NCBI GenBank assembly: GCA_945906755.1
Contig: CAMDRJ010000008.1
Coordinates: forward strand, 1 to 38,600
Length of the DNA: 38,600 nucleotides
Source: Klebsiella pneumoniae
Lineage (GTDB): Bacteria; Pseudomonadota; Gammaproteobacteria; Burkholderiales; SG8-39
Reading direction: 5' to 3'
The position numbers and the translations under genes were made by a program. This document shows, one piece after another, positions 22,132-27,323 of this stretch. Below the pieces are notes generated by a model. The model saw nothing but the letters and a program-made list of their open reading frames with translations, was not told where the DNA came from and ran no database searches. The stretch's first letter is position 1. Every line of letters starts with the position of its first letter.

Positions 22132-22339
22132 CCTATTCAAACAACGATAGATTGGTTCCGACGCCAACGCCCGATCTTTCCCGAGGCGCGGCAGTCGCCT
22201 GACCGGTCTCCTCCCCCGGCCGCATAAGCGTTCCCACTCGCACGCCCAACAACCGAATTCGCCGATCGAGATCGACGCGTTTCAAGCATTCACGTGCCGC
22301 CGCGCGAATTGCCTCGGCATCCGCGACCGCGAATGACAG
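22132..22339 (-). pseudogene. Duplicated 3'-terminal fragment of dinB
   Basis: Encodes AVADAEAIRAAARECLKRVDLDRRIRLLGVRVGTLMRPGEETGQATAAPRERSGVGVGTNLSLFE*, matching the end of dinB at 23567-23773 (AVADAELIRAAARECLKRVDLDRRIRLLGVRVGALVRPDEGGGLATAAPRERSGVGLGTNLSLFE*). About one mismatch in the first ~67 nt, weaker beyond. Confidence 0.88.
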
Positions 22340-22428
22340 GGAAGAAATTGGCGTCCAAGTGAAGTCACCTACGGTCTCTAACCTTACTGTGACCCCGCTT
22401 TCGTAACGGAAGTCGCAGATAAGCAAAC

Positions 22429-22457
22429 CGGCCGGGCGAGGAGTCCTCGTCCGGCCG
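22429..22457 (-). terminator. Intrinsic terminator-like hairpin downstream of the PEP-CTERM gene
   Basis: cggccgggcgaggagtcctcgtccggccg; on the minus strand the stem is followed by GTTTGCTT. Confidence 0.6.
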
Positions 22458-22490
22458 TAGACCGAACGCCGACCAGAAATCCGGTTAGCT

Positions 22491-23144
22491 CTACCGTTTG
22501 GGACGCCACGTCTGTTTAGCGCGGAGTCGTACCAAGACCAGCCCAGCCAACCCGGAGCAGAGCAGCAAGAGCGAACCCGGCTCCGGGACCGCGTTTTGGG
22601 TTTCGATCCGGATCGATGCCGCAAAAGCATGGTTCTGCCCATGCACCGGGATATTGTCCGAAGCCGCTACTGCAATCAGGTTGAGACCCTGGACCAGCAA
22701 TGCAGCAATATCGATCGGTCCGAAATTATTTGCGAACCCGTTTTGTTCGTCGAACACGAGAGTGCCGTTCAGATAAATGGAGGCGTCATCGTCAACGCCT
22801 CCGATCAGGGAGGCGGTCAATACCGGATCCGATATAGTGAACGTCTTTCTCAGCCATACGAATCGCGTGCTTGAAAATTGTCCGTCGTACCAGATGCATG
22901 AGCTTCCGCCGTTGCACCCTAGGACAAATAATAAGTCGATGGCGTTGATCCAGCTCGTCGTATTGAACGACGAATCGGAATTCCATGTGGGAGGCGGCTG
23001 CACATTTGTCGCGAGCCAAGAGGTATCGGTATTGATGATCAAAGGCGCGGCAGTAGCCGAAGAGGCAGCGGCCAGCGCCAGCGCGAAACCCAGCACAATC
23101 GCTTTCACCCGCGCGGCGCCCTTTCTCAAAAGATCGTCATCGAG
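22491..23144 (-). CDS. PEP-CTERM sorting domain-containing exported protein
   Basis: C-terminus AVPEPGSLLLLCSGLAGLVLVRLRAKQTWRPKR (PEP motif, hydrophobic stretch, basic tail); N-terminal signal VKAIVLGFALALAAASSATAAP; start near MLDDDLL within ORF 22491..23219. Confidence 0.85.
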   Translation of the reverse strand, partial: LDDDLLRKGAARVKAIVLGFALALAAASSATAAPLIINTDTSWLATNVQPPPTWNSDSSFNTTSWINAIDLLFVLGCNGGSSCIWYDGQFSSTRFVWLRKTFTISDPVLTASLIGGVDDDASIYLNGTLVFDEQNGFANNFGPIDIAALLVQGLNLIAVAASDNIPVHGQNHAFAASIRIETQNAVPEPGSLLLLCSGLAGLVLVRLRAKQTWRPKR

Positions 23145-23566: not shown

Positions 23567-24736
23567 CTATTCAAACAACGATAGATTGGTTCCGAGGCCA
23601 ACGCCCGATCTTTCCCGAGGCGCGGCAGTCGCCAGGCCGCCCCCCTCATCCGGCCTTACCAACGCCCCCACCCGCACCCCCAACAGCCGAATCCGCCGAT
23701 CGAGATCGACGCGCTTCAGGCATTCACGTGCGGCCGCCCGAATCAACTCGGCATCGGCGACCGCGACTGGCAGCGTGAAATCTCGGGTCACCGTCTTGAA
23801 GTCCTCGTAGCGCAGCTTGATGCCGATCGTCTTGCCGACGACGCCTTTGCGTACGAGATCTTCGGCGACGCGCGTACACAGGTGAAGCAGCACCATCGAT
23901 AGCGCCTCCCGGTCACGCTTGGGATGCAGATCGCGCTCGAAGGTCGTTTCGCGGCTGATTGATTTTGCCTCGCGCTCGGTGACAACCGGCCGGTCATCGC
24001 GGCCATGCGCTGCTTCATGCAGCCAGCGCCCATAGCTCTTGCCGAACTGTTCGACCAGCATCGCCGGATCGGCATTGGCGATATCGCCCACAGTGCGGAT
24101 GCCAAGGGCTTCGAGTTTATCGCTCGCGCGCGGACCGATGCCGTTCACTTTGCGTGTGGCGAGTGGCCAGATACGCGTTGGGACGTCGGCATGGGTGAGG
24201 ACGGTGATGCCGTTCGGTTTCTGCAATTCAGAGGCAAGCTTTGAGAGCAGCTTGTTTGGCGTAATGCCGATCGAACACGAGAGGCCGGTGGCATCGCGCA
24301 CGCGTTGTTTGATTTCAGTTGCGAGCGTCACCGACTCGCCGGGTACCTCGGTGAGGTCCATGTAGATTTCATCGATGCCACGATCCTCAATGACCGGTGC
24401 AATCGTCGCCACCGCCCCTTTGAACAGGCGCGAGTATTTGCTGTACTCCTCAAAATCGGCGGGCAGCAGAATCGCATCGGGCGCGAGCGCTGCGGCTTTC
24501 ATCAAGCCAATGCCGGAATGCACGCCGAATGCCCGCGCTTCATAGGTAGCAGTGGTGGCCACGCCACGCCCGACATACTCTCGCAATCGCGTGTAGATAC
24601 CGGATGATTCCGCGTCGCTCGCACGGCGCCTGCGTCCACCGATGACGACCGGTTGTCCGCGCAGATCGGGGTAGCGCAGCAATTCGACCGACGCATAGAA
24701 AGCATCCATGTCGAGATGCGCGATACGCCGCTCCAT
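23567..24736 (-). CDS. dinB: DNA polymerase IV (Y-family)
   Basis: MERRIAHLDMDAFYASVELLRYPDLRGQPVVIGG...GIDEIYMDLTEV...GLSCSIGITPNKLLSKLASELQKPNG. Confidence 0.95.
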   Translation of the reverse strand: MERRIAHLDMDAFYASVELLRYPDLRGQPVVIGGRRRRASDAESSGIYTRLREYVGRGVATTATYEARAFGVHSGIGLMKAAALAPDAILLPADFEEYSKYSRLFKGAVATIAPVIEDRGIDEIYMDLTEVPGESVTLATEIKQRVRDATGLSCSIGITPNKLLSKLASELQKPNGITVLTHADVPTRIWPLATRKVNGIGPRASDKLEALGIRTVGDIANADPAMLVEQFGKSYGRWLHEAAHGRDDRPVVTEREAKSISRETTFERDLHPKRDREALSMVLLHLCTRVAEDLVRKGVVGKTIGIKLRYEDFKTVTRDFTLPVAVADAELIRAAARECLKRVDLDRRIRLLGVRVGALVRPDEGGGLATAAPRERSGVGLGTNLSLFE

Positions 24737-26168: not shown

Positions 26169-26786
26169 ATGCCCAACATCACGATGCTTGATATCGACGA
26201 TCTCAAGCAAACCAAGCTCGCGCCCTATATCGAGATGTGCCTCAAAAATAAAGCGCCCGATCCCGGCTTTCACGCGATGATGGGCCACAACGTCGATCTC
26301 GCCGAAGCGATGTTTGTCGCTTGGAATACCGTCTTCAACACCGGCCGCGTGCCGCACAAGCTAAAAGAAATCATCCGCGTGCAACTATCGCGTCTCGTCG
26401 CCTGCACGTATTGAGGCAATGTCCGGTCCGCTTCGGCGAAGTGGCAAGGGCTTTCAGAAGAAAATCTCGACGACGGCATCAACAACTACGCCGCCAGCAC
26501 CAAACTCAGTCCCGCGGAAAGAATAGCGCTTCGCTATAGCGAAACGATGGCGCTCAACCCGGGCGCGATTGGCGCCGCTTTCTATGACGAATTGCGTCAG
26601 CATTACTCGGAAGAAGAAATCGTCGAGCTGGGCAGCTTCGTCGGCATGAACATCGGCTATCACACGTTCTTTGGCACGCTCAAGTTCTATCCGATGTTCT
26701 CGCCCGATGGCCGGCTCATCAGCCAGGAAGAATCCATTCGCATCTACGGCGATGCACCGGTGTCGCTGCAAGCGGCGAGGGCCTGA
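26169..26786 (+). CDS. Carboxymuconolactone decarboxylase/AhpD-like protein, candidate selenoprotein with in-frame TGA (Sec82) at 26412-26414
   Basis: SD aaggagaca before ATG 26169. Track ORFs 26169..26414 and 26547..26786 are in the same frame, with no other stop between them: ...LKEIIRVQLSRLVACTY[TGA]GNVRSASAKWQGLSEENLDDGINNYAASTKLSPAERIALRYSETMALNPGAIGAAFYDELRQHYSEEEIVELGSFVGMNIGYHTFFG.... TGA occupies the second position of a CxxC-type motif. Confidence 0.72.
26421..26451 (+). promoter_or_regulatory. Candidate bacterial SECIS hairpin downstream of the TGA
   Basis: GUCC-ggu-CCGCUUC-GGC-GAAGUGG-caa-GGGC: 7-bp upper stem (one G-U), GGC apical loop starting 20 nt after the TGA, 4-bp lower stem (one G-U). 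Folded by eye. Confidence 0.5.
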
Positions 26787-26789
26787 ACC

Positions 26790-27323
26790 ATGTCTAACAT
26801 CAAACCGCTGCCTTTGGAATCGATTACCGATCCGGAGTTGCGTGAGTTGATATCACGCTGCGAGAAGCTCGGCGTTCCCGATTCGATCTTCCCGCGCATC
26901 CTCGCGCATGTGCCGAGCTATGCGAAAGCGCTGCTGCGCGCACTGCTCCATTCGCATGTCGAAGGTAATGTCGATCACCGGTTAAAGGAAATCATCCGCG
27001 TGCGGCTGGCGGGTATTGCGGGTGACCCGTACTTCAGCGCCCTGCGCTCGAAACAAGCCAAGGCATCCGGACTCACCGAGGAGAGGATTGCCGCAGCCAC
27101 AAAATTCAACGAGGGCCCATACACGCCGGCCGAGAAACTTGCGATCGAATACGCGGTGCAGATGTATCTCGACGCCGACGGGAACGACGCCGCGTTCTAC
27201 GCACGCCTTAAAGAGCATTACAGCGAAGCGCAGATCATGGAGTTAGGCGCATTCATCGCATTCCACTACGGCATGCAAGTGTTCATGCGGACGTTGGATG
27301 CGCGACCGTTGGCGACTACGTGA
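26790..27323 (+). CDS. Carboxymuconolactone decarboxylase family protein (paralog of the preceding gene)
   Basis: LKEIIRVRLAGIAGDPYFSALRSKQAKASGLTEERIAAATKFNEGPYTPAEKLAIEYAVQMYLDADGNDAAFYARLKEHYSEAQIMELGAFIAFHYGMQVFMRTL aligns with the candidate selenoprotein; only 3 nt between genes. Confidence 0.82.
   Translation: MSNIKPLPLESITDPELRELISRCEKLGVPDSIFPRILAHVPSYAKALLRALLHSHVEGNVDHRLKEIIRVRLAGIAGDPYFSALRSKQAKASGLTEERIAAATKFNEGPYTPAEKLAIEYAVQMYLDADGNDAAFYARLKEHYSEAQIMELGAFIAFHYGMQVFMRTLDARPLATT

Follow-up and report, generated by a model that had tools for sequence, protein, structure and literature searches.

The stretch of DNA analysed here (38,600 nucleotides; hereafter the window) contains a gene of the AhpD/carboxymuconolactone decarboxylase (CMD) fold that is interrupted by a single in-frame TGA, which raises the question of whether the locus is broken or encodes a selenoprotein. 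This gene, which we call alpha (26169-26786, forward strand; 205 residues), looks as if a stop had disabled it but almost certainly encodes an intact selenocysteine (Sec) redox enzyme, a reading that draws on a conserved UGA, cysteine in homologues, a frozen hairpin tip, the presence of sel genes and loci in which alpha and sel genes are linked. We hold with high confidence to the reading as a whole: that alpha is an AhpD/CMD-fold selenoprotein in which UGA codon 82 is read as Sec, forming a CxxU redox pair, and that it is probably made together with the product of the adjacent gene, beta.

The reading frame and its conserved TGA

Alpha occupies a single frame of 205 codons, in which the sole internal stop is the TGA at 26412-26414 (codon 82, predicted Sec, forward strand); the frame ends at another TGA (26784-26786). 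The initial annotation had linked two ORFs of the same frame, beginning at 26169 and 26547, across an open interval, and our check of the frame agreed. The internal TGA sits in the context RLVACTY-(TGA)-GNVRSASAK, at the second Cys position of a C-x-x-C, and thereby completes the predicted redox motif C79-T-Y-U82 (26403-26414, forward strand), of which C79 and Y81 are invariant in A1. When codon 82 is read as Cys, the Pfam CMD model PF02627 matches residues 51-123, a span that includes the TGA, scoring 24.8 bits (cut-off 23), which bears out the earlier view that both halves belong to one carboxymuconolactone decarboxylase-family protein.

The TGA is shared by relatives. A genome from the same genus encodes a protein 97% identical to alpha with TGA at the same codon, and alpha is carried by six of 99 genomes from the family, with one internal TGA in each. 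Scanning named genome contigs yielded 22 alpha loci in assemblies of Beta- and Alphaproteobacteria, while among 369 genomes drawn across the class no further one matched at E <= 1e-25. Once duplicates had been removed, 25 distinct sequences reached codon 82: the window and 24 relatives from Beta- and Alphaproteobacteria, the latter at 60-97% identity. At the aligned position all 25 carry TGA, with no instance of TAA, TAG or a sense codon, a pattern that excludes chance. One locus (L050) has undergone a 29-codon in-frame deletion further upstream and retains the TGA. Purifying selection acts on both halves, with a median pairwise dN/dS of 0.13 ahead of the TGA and 0.24 past it, so the downstream half is still functional protein. 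Two of the environmental metagenome-assembled genome records that carry alpha (L044 and L045) are titled Bordetella parapertussis and Devosia equisanguinis, species names that look doubtful.

The initial annotation had also asked what homologues carry at the Sec column. Among distant homologues recovered by an order-wide profile search, column 82 is Cys in 20 (CEFC or CEYC, followed by GNQRS) and TGA in four members of other subfamilies (CTYU, CHYU, CGYU and CAYU). In a phylogenetic tree, the alpha, beta, Cys and other Sec forms each fall on one side of a branch, and a branch with support of 100/99 parts alpha and beta from the rest, subject to a long-branch warning. The other CMD selenoprotein subfamilies occur in the same order (L071, L089, L090 and L091), with several copies in some genomes; in the three that were scanned, the score against NF053654 fell under the cut-off.

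A predicted bSECIS hairpin and the selenocysteine machinery

Immediately 3' of the UGA lies a predicted bSECIS hairpin (26421-26451, forward strand), identified from the fold, the consensus fold, pair counts and frozen synonymous sites at codons 88-92. It comprises a lower stem (26421-26424/26448-26451), an upper stem (26428-26434/26438-26444) and an apical loop, GGC (26435-26437), which supplies the G expected in the loop of a SECIS element and is placed 20 nt 3' of the UGA. Its folding energy is unremarkable (z = -1.07, not significant), and we rejected stand-alone energy as proof of a SECIS element. Covariation is weak, in that a single pair has both partners altered (in two sequences) and 58 of the 500 shuffles do as well; as this was insufficient as proof, a synonymous-site test was used instead. 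Codons 88-91 (GCT TCG GCG AAG) are identical in 24 of 24 sequences, where the encoded amino acids allow 4, 6, 4 and 2 codons, respectively. Synonymous entropy across codons 88-92 is 0.021, the lowest of 127 windows (median 0.613), a value reached by none of 20,000 permutations. Such a nucleotide-level freeze at the hairpin tip is as expected for a bacterial SECIS element.

Genes for selenocysteine use are present in the genome from which the window derives: selA (585 bits), selB (365) and selD (427) all exceed their cut-offs. The selD gene itself has an in-frame TGA (GGGUGCKI; L018:1399-2538, minus strand), as does a UGSC-family gene (DUGSC; L020:3188-3745; NF041046, 157.6 bits) that lies downstream of selB with one other gene between them. 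The machinery that the initial annotation had proposed to look for was recovered in part, the tRNA-Sec coming from the same-genus genome rather than from the draft assembly itself. In this fragmented draft no tRNA-Sec was found among the 150 of 609 candidates that were scored; the best Rfam matches put through ARAGORN proved to be ordinary tRNAs, and the same-genus tRNA-Sec used as a DNA query gave no match. Four alpha-carrying members of the family, one of them the same-genus genome, do encode a tRNA-Sec with anticodon TCA. It directly follows the UGSC gene in the same-genus genome, whereas the contig bearing selB and the UGSC gene in our genome ends 63 bases past the UGSC stop, making an assembly gap a plausible reason for its absence. 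For a further alpha-carrying family member (G053), no tRNA-Sec occurred among the candidates listed or in the 19 kb around selA. Across the family, selA is found in all six genomes with alpha and in 37 of the 93 without it (Fisher p = 0.005, relatedness ignored).

The neighbourhood of alpha in other genomes adds guilt by association, a line of evidence separate from the sequence argument. In G047 the gene order is alpha, beta, a peroxiredoxin-like gene with an in-frame TGA (RGHWUPYC), tRNA-Sec, selB and selA, and G048 has the same gene set; selB and tRNA-Sec lie directly upstream of alpha in L051, and in L094 the peroxiredoxin-like gene, tRNA-Sec and part of selB are 7-9 kb away. The peroxiredoxin-like gene with this motif was seen near the alpha-beta pair at L092:6172-6648 and in L093, L094 and L039; its best NCBIfam match is far under the cut-off.

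Within the window, alpha is accompanied by genes for molybdenum hydroxylase subunits, a tripartite tricarboxylate transporter receptor and hydantoinase/oxoprolinase-like proteins, which suggest a catabolic setting and do not give a substrate. Elsewhere on the minus strand, the end of a DinB-like ORF (23567-24736) recurs in the ORF at 22133-22642, and an ORF with a PEP-CTERM-like tail sits between the two, in what looks like a partial duplication.

How the UGA codon is read

When a draft assembly shows a lone in-frame stop, the usual cause is a nonsense mutation, leaving a pseudogene, or a sequencing error, here a misread Cys codon. We rejected this account, to which we assign virtually no probability, on the conservation of the TGA: the same codon recurs in the 25 distinct sequences and in independent assemblies, ruling out a point error, while the downstream half is open, evolves under purifying selection in relatives and has frozen synonymous sites just past the TGA. 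The initial annotation had named both a sequence error and a pseudogene as refutations, and neither held. It is hardly more credible that the UGA ends an 81-residue product and that translation restarts at 26547 to give a second protein. Gene callers would indeed yield those two ORFs, but between the TGA and 26547 the protein sequence is strongly conserved (GNVRSASAK), the CMD domain runs across the TGA and the Cys homologues are continuous.

The UGA might instead specify another amino acid, through a reassigned code or a Cys-tRNA with anticodon UCA. Cys at column 82 of the homologues and the missing tRNA-Sec in our assembly both fit such a reading, but TGA also serves as the terminator of alpha, both in the window and in most relatives, selA, selB and selD are encoded in the genome, and a tRNA-Sec of the expected type is found in four alpha-carrying related genomes and near alpha in three loci; we judge it very unlikely. 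Selenocysteine recoding of the TGA within CxxC, as the initial annotation proposed, is supported, and those refutations it named that could be tested all failed.

On the selenoprotein reading, SelB and Sec-tRNA would decode UGA codon 82 as selenocysteine, guided by the hairpin immediately 3' in the mRNA, and Sec82 would form with Cys79 a CxxU redox pair, standing in for the CxxC of AhpD-like enzymes. On the model of AhpD, Sec82 would attack and Cys79 resolve, generating a selenenyl-sulfide that would then be re-reduced; the substrate may be a peroxide, a disulfide or another oxidised organic compound.

The predicted beta partner and known relatives

Directly after alpha comes beta (26790-27323, forward strand), a CMD paralogue (Pfam CMD, 27.9 bits) and predicted partner subunit. 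The initial annotation had aligned this paralogue with alpha across the TGA; that alignment holds, at 35% identity, with the refinement that beta lacks CxxC, having GDPYF at that place and similar residues in relatives. Beta lies directly 3' of alpha in each of the 24 loci examined that have room for it (23 of them distinct); in three others the contig stops within alpha or right at its end. The invariable succession of alpha by a motif-less CMD paralogue suggests a hetero-oligomer with one Sec subunit: alpha is probably made together with beta and may assemble with it. We see an even chance that the two constitute an obligate hetero-oligomeric AhpD-fold enzyme with a CxxU redox centre in one subunit only, the sister having lost the motif and serving structure, substrate binding or reductant docking. 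Somewhat short of even is the chance that beta is an independent protein that shares a transcript with selenoprotein alpha and forms no complex with it, a view that bears on the partner alone. The variable gap between the genes, from an overlap to 139 nt, fits independence. Against it, beta is the next gene after alpha wherever there is room, the two often overlapping by 1-4 nt; the tree makes beta sister to alpha; and beta lacks the catalytic motif. In the passages of the selenoprotein literature consulted, we found no hetero-oligomer with a single Sec subunit.

An AlphaFold model of alpha (mean pLDDT 77) matches AhpD/CMD structures, PA0269 and Bmp8 among them, and the profile search points the same way. 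By both profile and fold, the nearest solved structures are the Bmp8 debrominase (6ohi) and PA0269 (2ijc, 2o4d), which have CxxC at the same place and so carry Cys where alpha has its predicted Sec; identity is about 25%, and their substrates are not transferable to alpha. PA0269 also differs in having His where alpha has Arg86, four residues past Sec82. AhpD from Mycobacterium tuberculosis (1gu9), which works by a CxxC peroxidase mechanism, belongs to the same fold class, with a weak fold match (E = 2.8).

As a kind, CxxU AhpD-like selenoproteins are already known, with reports since 2005. They and CMD-domain selenoproteins were described from the Sargasso Sea (PMC1088965) and are listed again in recent surveys (PMC9312934; PMC13188914, Table 1, under TIGR01926 and PF02627). 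They resemble alpha in family, in having Sec at the second CxxC position and in a predicted SECIS element right after the UGA. Alpha appears to differ from them in being always paired with a motif-less paralogue, and the alpha subfamily may already be covered by one of those listed. It is not a member of TIGR01926 (peroxidase-related enzyme; 39.8 bits, cut-off 81.8), and it falls under the cut-off of every NCBIfam model matched. The best of these for the window protein is NF053654 (GroundWater_YciW, YciW-related (seleno)protein), which is matched by 17 of 17 aligned members and which the window protein matches at 57.8 bits (cut-off 310), placing it outside that family.

Standard gene callers would split or truncate alpha, and annotation of uncultured bacteria from soil, groundwater and lakes can therefore easily overlook the subfamily. 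The fixed pairing of alpha with a motif-less paralogue and, in several relatives, its clustering with tRNA-Sec, selB and selA make the pair a candidate heteromeric Sec enzyme that can be tested, and suggest a linked module for Sec use in uncultured Betaproteobacteria.
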